Source: a virus. From it: a stretch of DNA of 26,751 nucleotides. This document shows, in pieces, positions 9,224 to 17,761 of the stretch (within the stretch, counting starts at the first letter, position 1; each line of letters opens with the position of its first letter). Location: the IMG/VR virus record IMGVR_UViG_3300025646_000296, positions 1-26,751 of that record. One strand, given 5' to 3'. A model generated the notes under the pieces. It was not told where the DNA came from and did no database searches. It saw only the letters and a list, made by a program, of their open reading frames with translations. Both the position numbers and the translations under genes were made by a program.

Positions 9224-9425
9224 CGCTGGCATCCCAGAATCGCCCGGTCGCGATGAAGCGATCCAGAGCATGAGCGAGCCGAGGCCGTACCGTGCGACGT
9301 TTCGCGAGAAGAAGTCTGGCCTGATGCGCACCGAGCGGATCATGGCATTGAATTTCAAGGATGCGTTACGACAGGTCAAGCGTGATGGCGCAACTGTTAT
9401 TTCGATTTTGGAGGACTGGTCATGA
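9198..9425 (+). CDS. Hypothetical protein, 75 aa
   Basis: The ATG at 9198 follows GAGGT by a few bases. The protein has a polar N-terminal half and a C-terminal part with the pattern of strand, helix (FKDALRQVKRDG), strand (ATVISILEDW). The same general build (extracellular-looking 'ALN..DALRQ' helix) is seen in many small phage proteins. Its stop overlaps the ATG of the PP-loop gene (ATGA, 9422-9425), so expression is coupled. No family recognised. Confidence 0.6.
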   Translation: MDWRKIMSDAGIPESPGRDEAIQSMSEPRPYRATFREKKSGLMRTERIMALNFKDALRQVKRDGATVISILEDWS

Positions 9426-10192
9426 AGCACATCGTATTTTTCAGCTCTGGCATTGCCAGCTGGGTTGCCGCAAAGCGTGTTGCTGAAAGGTTTGGTGTTG
9501 ATGATGTGCGGCTTGTTTTTGCGGATACGCTTATTGAAGATGAAGACAATTATCGGTTTTTGCATGAAGCTGCCGCAAATGTTGGCGCTGATCTTGTGGT
9601 CTTGCGTGACGGGAGGGATCCTTGGCAAGTTTTTAAGGACGATCGATTCCTTGGCAACAGCAGGCTTGCCACTTGCTCCAAACGCTTAAAGCAGGAAACA
9701 TGCAGGAAGTACATTGAATCAATTGCCGAGGAAGTCGTCCTTTATCTCGGGATTGATTGGCAAGAGGCTCACAGGACAGACGCGATTGTGAATGGATGGT
9801 CGCCACGCAAGGTCGAGTTCCCTTTGATGTGGGAGCCTTGGCTTTCAAGGCCAGACTTTTTTGCGCTTGCTGATGCCGAGGGATTAAAGCCGCCAAGGCT
9901 TTATGACATGGGCTTTGCACATGCAAACTGTGGGGGGTTTTGCGTTAAGGGTGGACACAGCGCATTCAAGCATTTGCTGCAGCACTTTCCTGAACGCTAC
10001 GCTTTTCACGAACAAAAAGAAGAGGAAATGCGTAAATACCTTGAAAAGGATATTGCAATTATGCGAGATCGGTCTGGCGGCAAATCAACTCCAATGACGA
10101 TGAGAGAGTTTCGCCTTAGGCAAGCGCCAAATCTTACTCAGCTTACGCTTGATGATTGGGGCGGCTGTAACTGTTTCGCGGGGTCCGAATGA
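9422..10192 (+). CDS. PP-loop superfamily protein, PAPS-reductase-like
   Basis: This 256-aa protein resembles phage 'phosphoadenosine phosphosulfate reductase-like' proteins. The N-terminus HIVFFSSGIASWVAA has a PP-loop, but it reads SSGIASW where the classical form is SGGKDS. Other marks are VFADTLIEDEDNY (strand 2 and substrate region), LATCSKRLKQ (C85), CGGFC (C170/C174) and GGCNC near the C-terminus (C249/C251). The four late cysteines could hold zinc or an Fe-S cluster. Relatives include CysH, DndC and tRNA-modifying enzymes, so the role may be nucleic-acid modification rather than sulfate assimilation. It lies in an operon of DNA-processing genes, which favours DNA modification; this is inference. 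Confidence 0.75.
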   Translation: MKHIVFFSSGIASWVAAKRVAERFGVDDVRLVFADTLIEDEDNYRFLHEAAANVGADLVVLRDGRDPWQVFKDDRFLGNSRLATCSKRLKQETCRKYIESIAEEVVLYLGIDWQEAHRTDAIVNGWSPRKVEFPLMWEPWLSRPDFFALADAEGLKPPRLYDMGFAHANCGGFCVKGGHSAFKHLLQHFPERYAFHEQKEEEMRKYLEKDIAIMRDRSGGKSTPMTMREFRLRQAPNLTQLTLDDWGGCNCFAGSE

Positions 10193-12458: not shown

Positions 12459-12740
12459 ATGCCTGCTATCGAAAAGGTCAGCATTGCTGACGTTCCGCCC
12501 CGCACCAGTCGTCGTAGCAAAACGTCACCGCTGCGCGAAGCGATTCTTGAGCTTAAACCCGAAGAAGCGTGCTTTGTGCAGTATCATGATAAGAAGTCCG
12601 GCGAGGGCTATAAGCGCTCGACCGTGGCTCAAGTGGTAGGACGGCTGTCCAAGGACAGTTCTGAGTATCGCTATTCTGTCCGTTCTGATGTTTCCAAGAA
12701 CGGATGTTACATCCTTTGCTCTGCTAAGTCTGATGACTGA
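12459..12740 (+). CDS. Hypothetical protein, 93 aa
   Basis: The ATG at 12459 starts MPAIEKVSIADVPPRTSRRS. After a basic linker comes a helix (SPLREAILELKPEEA) and then alternating strands and basic residues (KRSTVAQVVGRLSKDS, EYRYSVRSDV). A basic surface suggests nucleic-acid binding, but no family is recognised. It ends in an 8-nt overlap with the SSB-like gene, so the two are coupled. Confidence 0.55.
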   Translation: MPAIEKVSIADVPPRTSRRSKTSPLREAILELKPEEACFVQYHDKKSGEGYKRSTVAQVVGRLSKDSSEYRYSVRSDVSKNGCYILCSAKSDD

Positions 12741-14010: not shown

Positions 14011-14192
14011 TGCGTCATCGTGAACTGATTCGAGGGCTGAATCGCACGACAGGGCCACTGCAACGCATTGGTATGTCGCTGATGTCATTACTGTCACCAG
14101 GGACAGTGATTGTGGCCACTTTTATAGGCTTCAGTGAAGCCATCAAAGACATGGATGACGAACAGCTTGAGGCGGTGTTTAGTGATGAATGA
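14010..14192 (+). CDS. Small membrane protein, 60 aa
   Basis: The ATG at 14010 overlaps the previous stop (TGATG). After a basic N-terminus (MRHRELIRGLNRTTG) one hydrophobic span covers about residues 22-43 (GMSLMSLLSPGTVIVATFIG), then an acidic tail. It could be a single-span inner-membrane protein. Its stop lies inside the start of the ThyX gene (8-nt overlap), so both are made together. No family recognised. Confidence 0.5.
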   Translation: MRHRELIRGLNRTTGPLQRIGMSLMSLLSPGTVIVATFIGFSEAIKDMDDEQLEAVFSDE

Positions 14193-14913
14193 TCCCTATT
14201 TCCGCGTTGTGTGCTTGAACCGAACAGAGCAGCCACAAAAGCTGATCTGGCAGGCAATGCACCAGGACTACAGCGAACAATGCGTGGCCTACGAGGATCC
14301 GCCATGCGAGTCGGAAGCCGGCAGGATTGCTGTTAAGCGGCTGCTGCAAGGTGGTCGCGGGCACTACGGCCCACTGGAGCATCCGAGCATCACATTCAGC
14401 GTCGGCTGGTTTCCCCATTCAGTGATGCAGCAAGCCCGGACCCATCGAGTTGGCGTGAGCTTTGATGTGCAGTCGATGCGTTACACCGGTCAGCGTGTGG
14501 CGCAGATTGCTCGCCGTGGCATTGGCATTGACATCGAAGAGGTCTTCTACTTGCGGCCTGTTGGCGAATACACCGACCGGCAGGGCAAAAAGTACAGCTA
14601 CAGCTCGGAGCTTAGAGCGGAAGACGTAGAGAGCTGCTATGCCGCAGCTGAAGCGTACGCTGCCAAGCTGGAGTTGGGCTTTGCCGAGGAACATGCCCGT
14701 GGGCTGTTGCCGTTCGACTTTCGCCAGCATTTTGTTGTCAGCTTCAGTCTACGGGCTCTCATGCACTTCTTGGACCTTCGCGCCAAGCTCGATGCCCAAT
14801 GGGAGATTCAGCAGCTGTGTGAACTTATCTGGCCTCACTTCGAGGCATGGACACCCGAGATCGCCAGCTGGTATCGCGATCATCGATGGGGCAAAGCGAG
14901 GTTGGCGCCATGA
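14185..14913 (+). CDS. thyX: Flavin-dependent thymidylate synthase
   Basis: ThyX makes dTMP from dUMP with FAD and methylene-tetrahydrofolate. The signature is visible as HRVGVSFDVQSMRY (87-100), a variant of RHRxxSxNExSxRY with Asn-Glu replaced by Asp-Val and one extra residue after HR. The C-terminal part has LMHFLDLRAKLDAQWEI, matching the usual HFLxLRxxxxAQxEI helix. The length (242 aa) is typical. I chose ATG 14185 because the frame extending to 14134 adds unrelated residues. It fits with the dCTP deaminase gene at 19398-19913, which supplies dUMP precursors. Confidence 0.92.
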   Translation: MNDPYFRVVCLNRTEQPQKLIWQAMHQDYSEQCVAYEDPPCESEAGRIAVKRLLQGGRGHYGPLEHPSITFSVGWFPHSVMQQARTHRVGVSFDVQSMRYTGQRVAQIARRGIGIDIEEVFYLRPVGEYTDRQGKKYSYSSELRAEDVESCYAAAEAYAAKLELGFAEEHARGLLPFDFRQHFVVSFSLRALMHFLDLRAKLDAQWEIQQLCELIWPHFEAWTPEIASWYRDHRWGKARLAP

Positions 14914-15059
14914 GCAAACCATCCCGCCGCGAGCGCTACTTGAAAGCGCTTGAGATCGCCGAACGCCATGGCAATCGGTTCATGGCCGCAAACATCCGCG
15001 CTGAGTTGCGGAAGCTCGACGCGGAGCCCACCACCACCCCGGAGAGATTCAATGACTGA
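14910..15059 (+). CDS. Hypothetical protein, 49 aa
   Basis: The ATG at 14910 overlaps the ThyX stop (ATGA). The product is basic and helical (SKPSRRERYLKALEIAERHG, then AANIRAELRKLDAEP). It ends in FND with the stop codon inside the ATGACTGA start of the next gene. This is the first gene of the small-gene cassette by its junction type. No function known. Confidence 0.6.
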   Translation: MSKPSRRERYLKALEIAERHGNRFMAANIRAELRKLDAEPTTTPERFND

Positions 15060-15372
15060 CCACCCCATCACCCCACCGACTGAGCTGGTGCAGCAGTTGT
15101 ACGGGCTGCCTCAGATAAGGGCAATAGAAAAGGCATTTGAGGCGGGCGCCAACGAAGAGCTGGAGGCGTGCATTGCTTGGTTTGACAAACACATCCCTGG
15201 ATATGAGCTAGTGGCCGACCGTCTCCGCGCCGGACGCCGCCCGAAGCCACCGAGTCTGGCAGAGCAGGGGTTGGCGGCGCTGCGGTCAACGCCCTGCACC
15301 GAACAGTGTCACTACGACGCACTGTTCGCCGCCCTCAACCGCCTCGCTGAGCTGGAGGATTCCAATGACTGA
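15052..15372 (+). CDS. MTD-type cassette protein, paralogue 1, 106 aa
   Basis: Starts MTDHPITPPTELVQQL after GGAGAG. The shared frame of this family is: a Pro-rich N-terminus, an amphipathic helix with EELEACIAW, a short variable segment, the RPKPPSLAEQ motif and a C-terminal helix ending in ND. The last residues SND overlap the ATG of paralogue 2. The same family is common, I believe, in picocyanobacterial phages, always unnamed. Function unknown; the helical build suits a protein-binding adaptor. Confidence 0.65.
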   Translation: MTDHPITPPTELVQQLYGLPQIRAIEKAFEAGANEELEACIAWFDKHIPGYELVADRLRAGRRPKPPSLAEQGLAALRSTPCTEQCHYDALFAALNRLAELEDSND

Positions 15373-15784
15373 TCACCCCACCATCGTCCCACCGACCACC
15401 ATCGTCCCACCGCGAGAGCTGAAGCAACAGTGGCTAGAGCAGGCCCCGCGCTATCGCGATTGTGGCGTGGGCCGCGCACATTGGCTGATAGACCGCGCCG
15501 CCCAGTGGGTTTACGAGCAATGCGGCAAGGTCAACGAGGCCCAGCTGCAGAAGGCCCGTGACGAGGAGCTGGAGGCGTGCTGTGAGTGGTTACGCCACGA
15601 GTACGGTTACGGCGAAGAACTCGCCCTCAGGCTCCGCGCCGCCTTCCGCCCGAAGCCACCGAGCTTGAAGGCGCAGGCGTTGGAATTAGCAAGACCGGCA
15701 GGAACAGAAGGAGCTTATGTGACTTTTGGTCCTGAAGAACTTGCACTTATTCGCCGCGCCCTGGAGGCACTTCCTAATGACTGA
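15365..15784 (+). CDS. MTD-type cassette protein, paralogue 2, 139 aa
   Basis: Starts MTDHPTIVPPTTIVPPRELK: the Thr-Ile-Val-Pro-Pro unit is repeated, so the N-terminus has a small internal duplication. EELEACCEWL replaces EELEACIAW of paralogue 1, and RPKPPSLKAQAL follows. The C-terminus IRRALEALPND supplies GGAGG (15763-15767) for the next start codon. GAGCTGGAGGCGTG is shared at DNA level with paralogues 1 and 3. No function known. Confidence 0.65.
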   Translation: MTDHPTIVPPTTIVPPRELKQQWLEQAPRYRDCGVGRAHWLIDRAAQWVYEQCGKVNEAQLQKARDEELEACCEWLRHEYGYGEELALRLRAAFRPKPPSLKAQALELARPAGTEGAYVTFGPEELALIRRALEALPND

Positions 15785-16127
15785 CTACCCCATCACCCCA
15801 CCGCCAGAGCTGGTGCAGCAGTGGATTGCCGAAATCTGGCACGAAGGCACTCCTGTTCAAGTTGCACAAAGCGACCTGCACGTTGCCAACCGCGCTGCCC
15901 AATGGGGAGCAGACCAAGAGCTGGAGGCGTGTTGTAAGTGGCTCCCTAAGTTGCCGCCATGGAGTGGGGAAGACCTACGCAAGCATCGCCGCCCGAAGCC
16001 GCCGAGCTTGAAGGAGCAGGCGATGCAAGAGTTTGATCACTTGATGAGTGAATTGGTTGGAACGGAACGATACAAGGATCGTATCTCTATTATCCGCCGC
16101 GCACTGGAGGCTCTTGCTGATGACTGA
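15777..16127 (+). CDS. MTD-type cassette protein, paralogue 3, 116 aa
   Basis: Starts MTDYPITPPPELVQQW, closest to paralogue 1 at its N-terminus (also in DNA: ACCCCATCACCCCACCG is identical). The middle has QELEACCKWL and RPKPPSLKEQAM, and the end (IIRRALEALADD) matches paralogue 2. This mosaic suggests recombination between copies. Its end carries GGAGG and overlaps the ATG of a 23-aa peptide. Function unknown. Confidence 0.65.
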   Translation: MTDYPITPPPELVQQWIAEIWHEGTPVQVAQSDLHVANRAAQWGADQELEACCKWLPKLPPWSGEDLRKHRRPKPPSLKEQAMQEFDHLMSELVGTERYKDRISIIRRALEALADD

Positions 16128-16191
16128 CTACCAAGCAACCCTACTTTTCAGCATCGCCATTATTGCCCTCGTTGCATGGAAACTCAAATGA
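16120..16191 (+). CDS. 23-aa membrane peptide
   Basis: The frame MTDYQATLLFSIAIIALVAW followed by KLK consists of an MTD start, one hydrophobic span (about residues 7-20) and a basic end. GGAGG (16106-16110) lies 9 nt upstream and both its ends overlap neighbouring genes by 4-8 nt, so it is placed and translated like a real gene. A single-span peptide of this size could affect a membrane protein; nothing more can be said. Confidence 0.5.
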   Translation: MTDYQATLLFSIAIIALVAWKLK

Positions 16192-16415
16192 CTGACCTAT
16201 CACCCGCTGCGCAAGCGGCAGTTAATGCAGCAGTTGAAGCTGGTGGTGGATACGGAAAAGCAACGCCAGTGTTGCGTGCACGCTTAGCCGCTGCCCTGGA
16301 GGCTGTTGTTGCGAAAACCAAAATGCGCCAGTACGGCACTTGCTGGATCTGTGATGCCAATGAACTCCTCGCCATCGCCGACGAGCTGCGCGGTCAGGAG
16401 GGCTCCAATGGCTGA
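16188..16415 (+). CDS. MTD-type cassette protein, 75 aa
   Basis: Starts MTDLSPAAQAAVNAAVEAGG. Ala-rich helices are followed by a Cys pair (C52-W-I-C55) and the helix ANELLAIADELRGQ, which resembles HLREIADELS in the 54-aa protein at 16718. Both end with the same kind of helix, suggesting a shared C-terminal module in this cassette. The ATG overlaps the stop of the membrane peptide by 4 nt. No function known. Confidence 0.6.
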   Translation: MTDLSPAAQAAVNAAVEAGGGYGKATPVLRARLAAALEAVVAKTKMRQYGTCWICDANELLAIADELRGQEGSNG

Positions 16416-16641
16416 ACTCTCGCACGAAGACGGCTGGCGGCCGTTTAAGACAAACCCACGGGTCTTTTGCGATGCGTGTGGCGAATCCAGGGATTGCACC
16501 CTTCATCAGAGAGCTGAGTTTCCGCCAGACGCAGCAAAGAAATACCTCAGGAAGCATTGTAACAACGAGCCTGGTGCCTGCAAGTTTCGCTACCAAGCAG
16601 GTATTTGGTTTAACCCCAAACCCCCTAGAGAAGGATACTGA
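16408..16641 (+). CDS. Cys/His-rich small protein, 77 aa
   Basis: Starts MAELSHEDGWRPFKTNPRVF after GGAGG (16397-16401), overlapping the previous stop by 8 nt with ATGGCTGA, a variant of the recurring seam. C21, C24, C30 and H33 form one possible metal site; H50, C51 and C58 could form another. A small zinc-binding protein is likely. The C-terminus is Lys/Pro-rich. No family recognised. Confidence 0.6.
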   Translation: MAELSHEDGWRPFKTNPRVFCDACGESRDCTLHQRAEFPPDAAKKYLRKHCNNEPGACKFRYQAGIWFNPKPPREGY

Positions 16642-16721
16642 TGATTGAACTCTCGACTGAGCAAGCATTCGCCGCCCTAGAGGCAGTGCAACAACACACC
16701 ACTACGGAGCCAATCTCATGA
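16641..16721 (+). CDS. 26-aa peptide of the cassette
   Basis: Frame MIELSTEQAFAALEAVQQHT followed by TTEPIS. AAGGA lies 5 nt before the ATG, and both ends overlap neighbours (start with TGATG-type, stop with ATGA). An amphipathic helix is predicted. It is short, so it may be a translated linker that couples the genes on either side rather than a functional protein. Confidence 0.4.
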   Translation: MIELSTEQAFAALEAVQQHTTTEPIS

Positions 16722-16882
16722 AAGCAACTGTTCACTGGTATGGAAAATATGCTGATGTAGTTTTTCAAGATTGCAGCACAACCATGATGATATATTGTCT
16801 TAACCAGGCTGAGCAAAGTGATCTAGCCGAGCATTTGCGCGAAATTGCTGATGAACTGAGTCCCACCACGGAGGCACCATGA
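16718..16882 (+). CDS. Hypothetical protein, 54 aa
   Basis: Starts MKATVHWYGKYADVVFQDCS with two strands, a Met-rich middle (TTMMIYCLNQ) and the helix DLAEHLREIADELS. The start overlaps the previous stop (ATGA). GGAGG near its end (16870-16874) is the ribosome-binding site of the next gene. No family recognised. Confidence 0.5.
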   Translation: MKATVHWYGKYADVVFQDCSTTMMIYCLNQAEQSDLAEHLREIADELSPTTEAP

Positions 16883-17163
16883 CTGACGCCACACGCGAAC
16901 TGATCCAGCGCATGGCCAGGGAGCTGGATCTTTACCGACAGATGGCGCGAGACAACTGCACGTCAACCCATCCGCTCGCTGATGAAGCCCGCGCCTACCT
17001 CTCCCAGCCCGAGCCGAGTCTCACCGTTGAAAACTGCAGCAACATGCACAAGCATGCGGGAAACTACATAGCGGAAGACTTTGGAGAGATCACACTCGAT
17101 GGACTCTTCACTCGCGAAGATCCCATCGAAATTGCAAACACCTTACCAACAACAGAAGTATGA
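16879..17163 (+). CDS. MTD-type cassette protein, 94 aa
   Basis: Starts MTDATRELIQRMARELDLYR, an amphipathic helix, then ADEARAYLSQPEPS and a more polar C-terminal half (GNYIAEDFGEITLDGLF). It overlaps both neighbours by 4 nt. The N-terminal helix followed by 'AxAYLxxPEP' resembles short helical proteins common in this type of phage. No function known. Confidence 0.6.
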   Translation: MTDATRELIQRMARELDLYRQMARDNCTSTHPLADEARAYLSQPEPSLTVENCSNMHKHAGNYIAEDFGEITLDGLFTREDPIEIANTLPTTEV

Positions 17164-17471
17164 CTGACACATTCCGCGCACTGTGTGCTGAAGTCTTGGC
17201 ATTTAACAATGGAGAAAGTCCTTACAATTTTTCTGGCTTGAACCCTTATGACAGGGATAATGCTGCCTTCGATGCTTGGCAAGACATTAGGCAACGGCTC
17301 AAGTCTGCCCTGGCCGAGCCCGAACCTCAAACTCCTAGCAAGAGCGAGTTATTCAGGTTACTGATGCAGTCTGGCGGCGCTAATAGAGTCGTCTCTATTG
17401 AATGGCTGGAGCCTTTCGCCCAAGCCGTCCTCGCCCGCTGGGGTAGCGCCCTGCCTACACCGCAACCATGA
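17160..17471 (+). CDS. MTD-type cassette protein, 103 aa
   Basis: Starts MTDTFRALCAEVLAFNNGES and has a middle segment typical of this family (RQRLKSALAEPEPQ). The C-terminal part (GGANRVVSIEWLEPFAQAVL) resembles small cyanophage proteins I cannot name. It overlaps its neighbours by 4 nt on each side. No function assigned. Confidence 0.6.
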   Translation: MTDTFRALCAEVLAFNNGESPYNFSGLNPYDRDNAAFDAWQDIRQRLKSALAEPEPQTPSKSELFRLLMQSGGANRVVSIEWLEPFAQAVLARWGSALPTPQP

Positions 17472-17761
17472 CCGATTTTAAATTTCAGCCAGGCGATCGT
17501 GTTGCGGAACGCCCAAGGGTTAAGTTAAACATTGCGTCAACAGCGCAAGGTCAAGCTGTATTCAATCGTCATAGCAAGCAGCGTTATGGCACGGTGACCG
17601 CTACGACCATTCGAGTCAATTCCAAGGGATCGAAGCGAAAGGTCGTCTTGGTGCAGTGGGACGGCTCGCAGCAGTCGTCCGAGCATGAGCAAATGCGTCT
17701 ATGCGCAATTGACGATTTGCCTAAGCTAACGCAATCAACCCTGAACGGCCACGCAGCATGA
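17468..17761 (+). CDS. Small beta-rich protein, 97 aa, possible SH3/KOW-like fold
   Basis: Starts MTDFKFQPGDRVAERPRVKL. The two segments QPGDRVAERP and RYGTVTATTI with KVVLVQWDGS form the strand-turn pattern of an SH3-like or KOW-like barrel, in which GDRV and YGTV are usual. The C-terminus has HEQMRLCAIDDLPKL. The fold call is by eye. It precedes an HTH/zinc-type protein with a 4-nt overlap. Function unknown. Confidence 0.55.
   Translation: MTDFKFQPGDRVAERPRVKLNIASTAQGQAVFNRHSKQRYGTVTATTIRVNSKGSKRKVVLVQWDGSQQSSEHEQMRLCAIDDLPKLTQSTLNGHAA

Follow-up and report, generated by a model that had tools for sequence, protein, structure and literature searches.

The 8-mer ATGACTGA as a recurring double-stop gene joint and exchange boundary in small-gene cassettes of phages

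The boundary or linker sequences of lambdoid phages are short conserved sequences at module borders, where mosaics switch, and they lie between modules, not inside overlapping codons. The subject of this study is the 8-mer ATGACTGA, which recurs at the starts of tiny genes in IMG/VR virus record IMGVR_UViG_3300025646_000296. The whole record (26,751 bases) is referred to as the window, the cassette studied lies at 14910-17761 on the plus strand, and a copy of ATGACTGA that joins two genes is referred to as a seam. The seam is a phage boundary sequence with a new double-stop property and a link to the 'ORFanage' of phage S-PM2, and does not constitute a new category.

Overlapping gene pairs can be coupled by termination-reinitiation, and cyanobacteria use Shine-Dalgarno (SD) sequences sparingly at first initiation and amply at overlapping pairs (PMC6728339); overlaps of 4 nt (about 45% of all) and 1 nt (about 15%) dominate in prokaryotes (PMC3887535). 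As in termination-reinitiation pairs of the ATGA and TGATG types, stop and start share bases at the seam, an SD lies in the upstream gene and re-initiation is probable; here, however, a single fixed 8-mer with stops in both other frames is common to many unrelated genes, and 8-nt overlaps make up 173 of 669 short overlaps in the loci that carry the gene family phrog_32006. The start-associated sequence (SAS) of cluster K mycobacteriophages is likewise a short repeat, SD included, that marks the beginnings of numerous small, unrelated non-structural genes, mostly in one orientation, but it is a 13-bp sequence, GGGATAGGAGCCC, placed 3-7 bp upstream of the start (PMC3203893), whereas the seam repeat is the start codon region itself and its exchange boundaries were tested here. 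Base frequencies upstream of 156 seams gave the GGAG core at -11 to -8 as the sole signal, and no SAS-like repeat ahead of the start codon. The PeSL cassettes of T4-type phages, composed of a promoter and a stem-loop, also carry a short repeated border element, proposed to mediate modular shuffling (cited in PMC4503421); seam genes, in contrast, overlap by 4 or 8 nt without intergenic space and do not match this arrangement, although no promoter scan was made. The ORFanage of S-PM2 is a hypervariable block of small orphan genes that has been called a gene-exchange hotspot of unclear mechanism, for which the authors thought T4-type PeSL elements unlikely (PMC4503421), and it is not a general feature of such phages (PMC2984593). 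A recurring start motif is absent from the available part of the published ORFanage account (PMC4503421), whereas a seam array is seen here. In the available parts of the literature on coupling, the SAS, PeSL citations and S-PM2, no description of the ATGACTGA joint was found, and no title among the matches listed was on the subject.

A double-stop sequence at gene joints

ATGACTGA holds a TGA at bases 2-4 and a second TGA at bases 6-8, that is, a stop in both frames other than that of its ATG. Exact copies lie in the window at 12733, 15052, 15365, 15777, 16120, 16188, 16879 and 17160, eight on the plus strand and none on the minus strand, against 1.07 expected over both strands, and 0 of 100 shuffles reached eight. 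An open reading frame (ORF) beginning Met-Thr-Asp starts at all eight, and the stop of the preceding gene falls within the 8-mer at all eight, not just in most, as the first-pass annotation of this DNA had it. The TGA at bases 6-8 is used, giving an 8-nt overlap, at 12733, 15052, 15365, 15777 and 16120, and the TGA at bases 2-4, giving a 4-nt overlap, at 16188, 16879 and 17160; every exact window seam therefore has a start that overlaps the upstream stop by one of the lengths (1, 4 or 8 nt) taken to mark coupled genes. Variants occur at 14185 (ATGAATGA, 8-nt overlap), 16408 (ATGGCTGA, 8 nt), 16641 (ATGATTGA, 1 nt) and 17468 (ATGACCGA, 4 nt). Within the upstream gene ends of the window, GGAGG precedes the starts at 15365, 15777, 16120, 16408 and 16879 and GGAGA that at 15052, and neither was found before 12733, 16188 or 17160. 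The earlier report of exact and variant start sites, several of them preceded by GGAGG, is thus borne out at every position, and the recurrence of an SD plus ATGACTGA seam in the window is confirmed. Three of the genes, those starting at 15052, 15365 and 15777, belong together as paralogues in phrog_32006, a family of unassigned function, so ordinary duplication explains part of the recurrence.

To extend the comparison to relatives, 79 virus loci were gathered with phrog_32006 peptide patterns from which the joint itself was excluded, and 80 further loci via the window's ThyX; loci are designated by L numbers. Isolates with the phrog_32006 family are the Synechococcus phages S-CBS2, S-H1 and S-RIP1, and the top match of the window primase is S-H1 (55%), so the hosts of these viruses are probably cyanobacteria. 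In the phrog_32006 loci, ATGACTGA was counted 201 times on the coding strand, where 22.6 copies are expected, and 14 times on the other strand (12.1 expected); for the ThyX loci the corresponding counts are 43 (18.6 expected) and 16 (17.7 expected). Once near-duplicates were removed, ORFs of at least 40 amino acids (aa) on both sides were joined at the 8-mer at 126 of 156 coding-strand sites and at 1 of 13 sites on the other strand, a concentration at joints that agrees with the proposed tie to gene starts and differs from an equal frequency elsewhere. Among the 669 short-overlap joints, ATGACTGA is the commonest 8-mer (140), followed by ATGACTAA (37), likewise a double-stop sequence.

Base N of ATGACNGA is T at 140 joints, C at 6, G at 2 and A at 1, against T139, C147, G94 and A84 for ACN-GA within genes; put as codons, ACT follows ATG in 140 of 149 MTD/MTE starts and makes up 139 of 464 ACN-GA occurrences within genes. 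Of 38 4-nt joints with a closed second frame, 25 retain the T of the stop that is not used, compared with 188 of 716 occurrences within genes (Fisher P 8e-7). Starts with MTD/MTE are rare at 1-nt overlaps (4/155), more frequent at 4-nt overlaps (41/318) and common at 8-nt overlaps (94/163), and the shared protein start therefore follows the nucleotide motif: the common Met-Thr-Asp 5' end noted in the first-pass annotation is real at all eight exact sites, and seems to be a consequence of the nucleotide sequence. An SD core at -16 to -4 is present at 66 of 94 8-nt seams and 18 of 33 4-nt seams, against a fraction of 0.34-0.39 at other joints, and lies within the upstream gene at most seams, though not all. 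Genes of phrog_32006 begin at just 48 of 209 seam sites (the 79 loci plus the window), and 438 seam genes, HNH endonuclease and DUF3310 proteins among them, fall into 134 clusters with 101 singletons, a rough count given that the largest cluster (230) chains several families. The recurrence of ATGACTGA exceeds mere duplication. A scan of genomes with the family profile returned two loci, both on short metagenome-assembled contigs. A gene-start habit of the host was considered as the source of the seam and rejected, since SD plus seam occurs 7 times in 6 genomes of the genus of the Cyanobium metagenome-assembled genome.

Exchange boundaries and reading frames at the joint

A scan of IMG/VR with the 21-nt joint CTGGAGCAACTYGATGACTGA found at least 120 stretches; in 97 non-redundant cases among the matches listed, the upstream gene was phrog_32006 in 91 and the following genes formed 25 clusters. 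An anchored test was then applied to 279 loci (196 without near-duplicates), in which a 150-nt flank with at least 80% identity to a relative was held fixed and the opposite flank was scored as related or not, for seams, other short-overlap joints within 2.5 kb (near), far joints, and mid-gene positions near and far. With the upstream side anchored, unrelated downstream flanks were scored in 428 of 579 seam pairs, 346 of 977 pairs at near other joints, 139 of 787 at far joints, and 35 of 192 (near) and 18 of 227 (far) at mid-gene controls. With the downstream side anchored, the upstream side differed in 320 of 491, 482 of 1032 and 148 of 719 pairs, respectively, and in 21 of 179 (near) and 13 of 241 (far) mid-gene pairs. 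The per-joint rate of neighbour switching, in loci chosen without the joint and with the upstream flank conserved, was 0.69 (0.54-0.82) at seams, 0.18 (0.12-0.25) at near other joints, 0.11 (0.07-0.15) at far joints and 0.21/0.09 at mid-gene positions; other double-stop 8-mers nearby, in loci chosen in the same way, switched at 0.49. Where the anchor gene was not phrog_32006 (all loci), the rates were 0.59 at seams, 0.30 at near other joints and 0.15 at far joints. An earlier count of breakpoints from raw BLAST ends, made on redundant loci, gave an excess at seams and also at other joints, and is superseded by the anchored test.

In upstream-anchored switched pairs, corrected for register, identity stays high across the 8-mer and drops at +8, to about 0.36; in downstream-anchored pairs it remains at background to about -1 and rises at the 8-mer. 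ATGACTGA is retained in 165 of 228 upstream-anchored relatives despite a different next gene, the ATG being fixed by construction. Homology between relatives thus begins or ends at ATGACTGA, and the proposal that cassette breakpoints fall in the 8-mer stands, boundaries being far more frequent there than at other joints. That ATGACTGA is an exchange boundary between neighbouring genes of related viruses is largely supported.

As regards frame INDEPENDENCE, pairs of similar genes at seams (at least 60% aa identity, from the first residues) had different overlap frames in 45 cases and the same frame in 148, and 10 of 44 clusters of similar seam genes contained both. The 22-nt joint actggagcaactcgATGACTGA is common to L273 and L244, and over its first 200 nt the gene that follows is 99% identical between them; ahead of the joint stand two unrelated genes, one stopped by the first TGA of the 8-mer and the other by the second. 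Read-through fusions, in which the upstream gene is in frame with the seam, were observed at L016:10310 (..WSNL-MTDQHPITPP..) and L178:327 (..WSNS-MTDYTATPKQW..).

Clean single events were also compared. A seam lies within 25 nt of an end in 5 of 38 distinct clean indels, and 6 of 76 indel ends are at seams against 0.6 expected from their footprint (0.8% of bases). Between L282 and L257, which are 97.7% identical alongside, one gene of the phrog_32006 (A) family is present or absent between two seams, with a 10-nt direct repeat, AATGACTGAC; L205 and L168 differ across a 10-nt repeat over the Shine-Dalgarno sequence (CTGGAGAACA).

The cassette, its relatives and arrays in other phages

The features of the window, all on the plus strand, are as follows.
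12733-12740, plus: seam ATGACTGA, start of a 118-aa gene ending DDFPF, resembling single-stranded-DNA-binding protein by eye and without a Pfam match; 8-nt overlap
14185-14192, plus: seam variant ATGAATGA with stops in both other frames, start of thyX (14185-14913); 8-nt overlap
14910-15059, plus: R gene (MSKPSRRERYLKALEIAERHG..), start ATGAGCAA; 4-nt overlap with thyX
15052-15059, plus: seam ATGACTGA at the border of R and A1; 8-nt overlap, GGAGA upstream
15052-15372, plus: A1, phrog_32006 family, 106 aa
15365-15784, plus: seam ATGACTGA and A2, phrog_32006 family, 139 aa; 8-nt overlap, GGAGG upstream
15777-16127, plus: seam ATGACTGA and A3, phrog_32006 family, 116 aa; 8-nt overlap, GGAGG upstream
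16120-16191, plus: seam ATGACTGA and a 23-aa hydrophobic peptide, membrane-like by eye; 8-nt overlap, GGAGG upstream
16188-16415, plus: seam ATGACTGA and C family gene (MTDLSPAAQ..), 75 aa; 4-nt overlap
16408-16641, plus: seam variant ATGGCTGA and a 77-aa gene; 8-nt overlap, GGAGG upstream
16641-16721, plus: variant ATGATTGA and a 26-aa ORF; 1-nt overlap
16718-16882, plus: 54-aa gene with an ordinary 4-nt overlap (ATGAAAGC)
16879-17163, plus: seam ATGACTGA and B' family gene (MTDATRELIQRMARELD..), 94 aa; 4-nt overlap, GGAGG upstream
17160-17471, plus: seam ATGACTGA and B family gene (MTDTFRALCAEV..), 103 aa; 4-nt overlap
17468-17761, plus: variant ATGACCGA and E gene, 97 aa; the variable island ends here on the right
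15052-17467, plus: variable island; the sequence on either side is conserved in L089 (81%), and that on the right also in L057 (83%)

The limits of the island follow from relatives of the window. L089 aligns to it at 81% as far as 15097 and again starting at 17467, L057 from 17447 onward, and L088 over 14182-14922 and then from 19398; the variable island accordingly spans about 15.05-17.47 kb, and the 17468 seam forms its right edge. Gene content thus differs among relatives, and an identical order without breakpoints was not found. The R gene was traced separately to 15 loci, of which 12 were resolved and 3 were not. It is preceded by ThyX in L310 and by other C-termini in L307, L312, L313, L315, L317 and L318; it is followed by ATGACTGA and an A-family-like gene in L307, L308, L310, L311, L313, L315, L317 and L318 and by ATGACTGA and a C-family gene in L312, and among the 12 resolved loci no seam follows it in L309, L314 and L316. 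Many R gene relatives themselves start with ATGACTGA (MTEPSRRERYL). L307 and L308 differ by a 1-nt indel just before the seam that changes the 8-nt overlap to a 4-nt overlap, and the R gene stop still lies inside the 8-mer. Compared with the window, L088 carries an insertion of 578 bp that separates thyX from R exactly at the R start codon (14910); the homology there is 2 nt. In L315, a repeated SD and start unit, CAGGAG(A/G)ACAAC nn ATGA, stands ahead of six genes on one phage contig (4720, 5381, 5716, 5949, 6935 and 7309), and lineages may therefore have their own version of the joint.

Apart from ThyX, the small window genes gave no Pfam or PADLOC match above cut-off, and against PHROGs they matched mainly phrog_32006. 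A structural model of this family, built from 25 sequences, is nearly all helical (predicted local distance difference test score, pLDDT, 81.5; predicted template modelling score, pTM, 0.49), with two BFVD matches without function and no PDB match at E 0.001. A DUF3310 protein at a seam in L080 (10375-10593) resembles the anti-Thoeris family Tad4 weakly, with a score below the cut-off, and some cassettes may be anti-defence genes. A PAPS-reductase-like gene (phrog_424) lies at 9422-10192 in the replication region of the window.

Phage S-PM2 (196 kb) contains 26 forward copies of ATGACTGA and one reverse copy, 14 of them between 6135 and 14531, and its ORFanage, with 14 seams over about 9.6 kb, is also a seam array. 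Within its first 50 kb the 8-mer forms 13 of the 50 short-overlap joints, compared with 0 of 44 in lambda and 0 of 31 in T7. Forward and reverse counts are 8/2 in Syn1, 2/8 in S-CAM1, 5/1 in Syn9, 10/1 in P-SSM2 and 6/6 in S-RSM4, all T4-like cyanophages, and 2/6 in T4, 0/2 in lambda and 0/1 in T7; KVP40, said to have an ORFan region, has 15 forward and 4 reverse copies in 245 kb and no dense array. At four annotated S-PM2 starts (L293, NC_006820; 7285, 7689, 11880 and 13342), an in-frame ATGACTGA or ATGACTAA follows 3-9 nt downstream, and the seam is probably the true start of these genes. The laboratory deletion S-PM2d was considered as a seam-mediated event and rejected, its junction (wild-type 5798|15339) having 1 nt of homology and no seam.

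Arrays were also sought without reference to a gene family, by scanning IMG/VR for three seams spaced 188-218 bases apart, with ATGACCGA as a synonymous control. This gave 37 stretches for ATGACTGA and 2 for ATGACCGA; of the sites in the 37 arrays, 184 follow the coding strand and 2 the opposite one, and a phrog_32006 gene is present in 0 of 37. Some contain S-PM2-type genes and others are plain paralogue arrays. The seam-array genes of L326, L331, L339, L342, L345 and L357 begin MTDDLVxxLR or a close variant, apparently from another phage group, and the arrays of L323, L332, L346, L358 and L359 resemble simple tandem paralogues or repeats.

Interpretation and rival explanations

We consider it fairly probable that ATGACTGA is a frame-independent, translationally coupled gene joint that tolerates exchange, with seams surviving as boundaries. 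Base 1 of the 8-mer would start the downstream gene, and one or the other TGA would stop an upstream gene arriving in either of the other two frames; with an SD core in the last codons of that gene, the terminating ribosome would probably re-initiate on the new one. Because the double stop covers both other frames, the joint would work for either incoming out-of-phase frame, and a cassette with a ATGACTGA 5' end should fit behind almost any out-of-phase gene, with neither gene fused nor disrupted. If a cassette between two seams were lost, or one were gained at a single seam, a working seam would remain, so that seams would survive as boundaries and may be retained because they survive exchange.

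Several observations weigh against this interpretation or limit it. Among the four nearest genomes the families follow a loose common order (A, membrane peptide, C, B', E), with individual members present in some and missing from others, so that 'reshuffled' is too strong a word for the nearest relatives. Other overlapped joints also exchange more than mid-gene positions, and the seam therefore sharpens a general trend. With downstream anchoring the contrast is weaker (all loci, 85%: 0.46 at seams, 0.32 at near other joints), and other nearby double-stop 8-mers switch as much or more (0.95 and 0.53). The commonest 3' joint is nearly always in one frame, with 133 of 142 cases at 8 nt, 3 at 4 nt, 2 in-frame fusions and 4 unclear. 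Most clean indels (33/38) are away from seams, and S-PM2d, the sole laboratory deletion seen, has 1 nt of homology at its junction and lies where 14 seams occur. Of the microhomology that the first-pass annotation placed at each border, the L282/L257 event gives one exact case, with 10 nt. The annotation's suggestion that the seam lets genes be added, lost or reshuffled is partly supported, in that content differs, boundaries fall at the seam and one exact one-gene event was found, while order is loosely kept. The repeat could itself promote crossovers: L282/L257 speaks for this, while S-PM2d and the 33 indels tell against a strong driving role. The window also encodes an exonuclease VIII-like protein (phrog_412), and its participation in exchange is only a possibility.

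Ordinary phage mosaicism, in which random illegitimate recombination is followed by selection against broken genes, boundaries are left at gene starts and the seam is just the region's commonest gene start, is rather doubtful: it would account for the switching of other overlapped joints above mid-gene sites, for the 33 indels away from seams, most with 0-8 nt of homology, and for the S-PM2d deletion, but not for the gap between near other joints (0.18) and seams (0.69), the 10-nt homologies over the seam (L282/L257) and over the SD (L205/L168), or the identical 22-nt joint read in two frames (L273/L244). Pure translational coupling or compaction, in which the 8-mer is a convergent solution for tight 4- or 8-nt overlaps with an SD in the upstream gene and exchange there is incidental, is unlikely. 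The overlaps and the enrichment of SD cores at seams are what it would produce, as are the arrays in loci without phrog_32006, and it fits the cyanobacterial pattern of SDs ample at overlapping pairs and sparing at de novo starts (PMC6728339); coupling alone, however, needs neither AC at bases 4-5 nor the T at base 6 where the stop is unused, which is kept in 25 of 38 cases, and does not predict a switch rate at seams above that of other overlapped joints.

Tandem duplication, by which paralogues inherit a repeated 5' end, fits the three paralogous genes at 15052, 15365 and 15777 and the plain arrays of L332, L358, L323, L346 and L359, and is nevertheless a very improbable account of the whole, as phrog_32006 starts at just 48 of 209 sites and the 438 seam genes spread over the rough count of 134 clusters and 101 singletons, HNH and DUF3310 included. 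The least credible rival is that HNH homing endonucleases in the cassettes cut near the seam and drive exchange. HNH_3 genes do begin at seams in L012 and L034, and L207 (4594-5105) compared with L216 has a 511-bp insert, by eye an HNH-like gene, just after MTDLSPAAQ of a seam gene, with GCGCAG repeated at its ends; by eye, however, most of the seam arrays read contain none (10 representative seam proteins outside the window were scanned). A bolder version of the frame-independent joint would make ATGACTGA an evolved universal adaptor, a plug that lets any small gene be inserted, lost or swapped and still be translated, with ORFan islands, the S-PM2 ORFanage among them, as collections of interchangeable parts, selection acting partly on exchangeability, and the 8-22 bp joint serving also as the crossover site; this is conceivable, though we regard it with some doubt.

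For the question of how islands of tiny orphan genes are assembled and turned over in phages, a frame-independent joint that can be recognised would allow cassette borders to be called from sequence, gene starts to be corrected, and recombination and coupling to be measured at a defined 8-mer, and the seam suggests a compact rule by which operon genes are joined regardless of frame.

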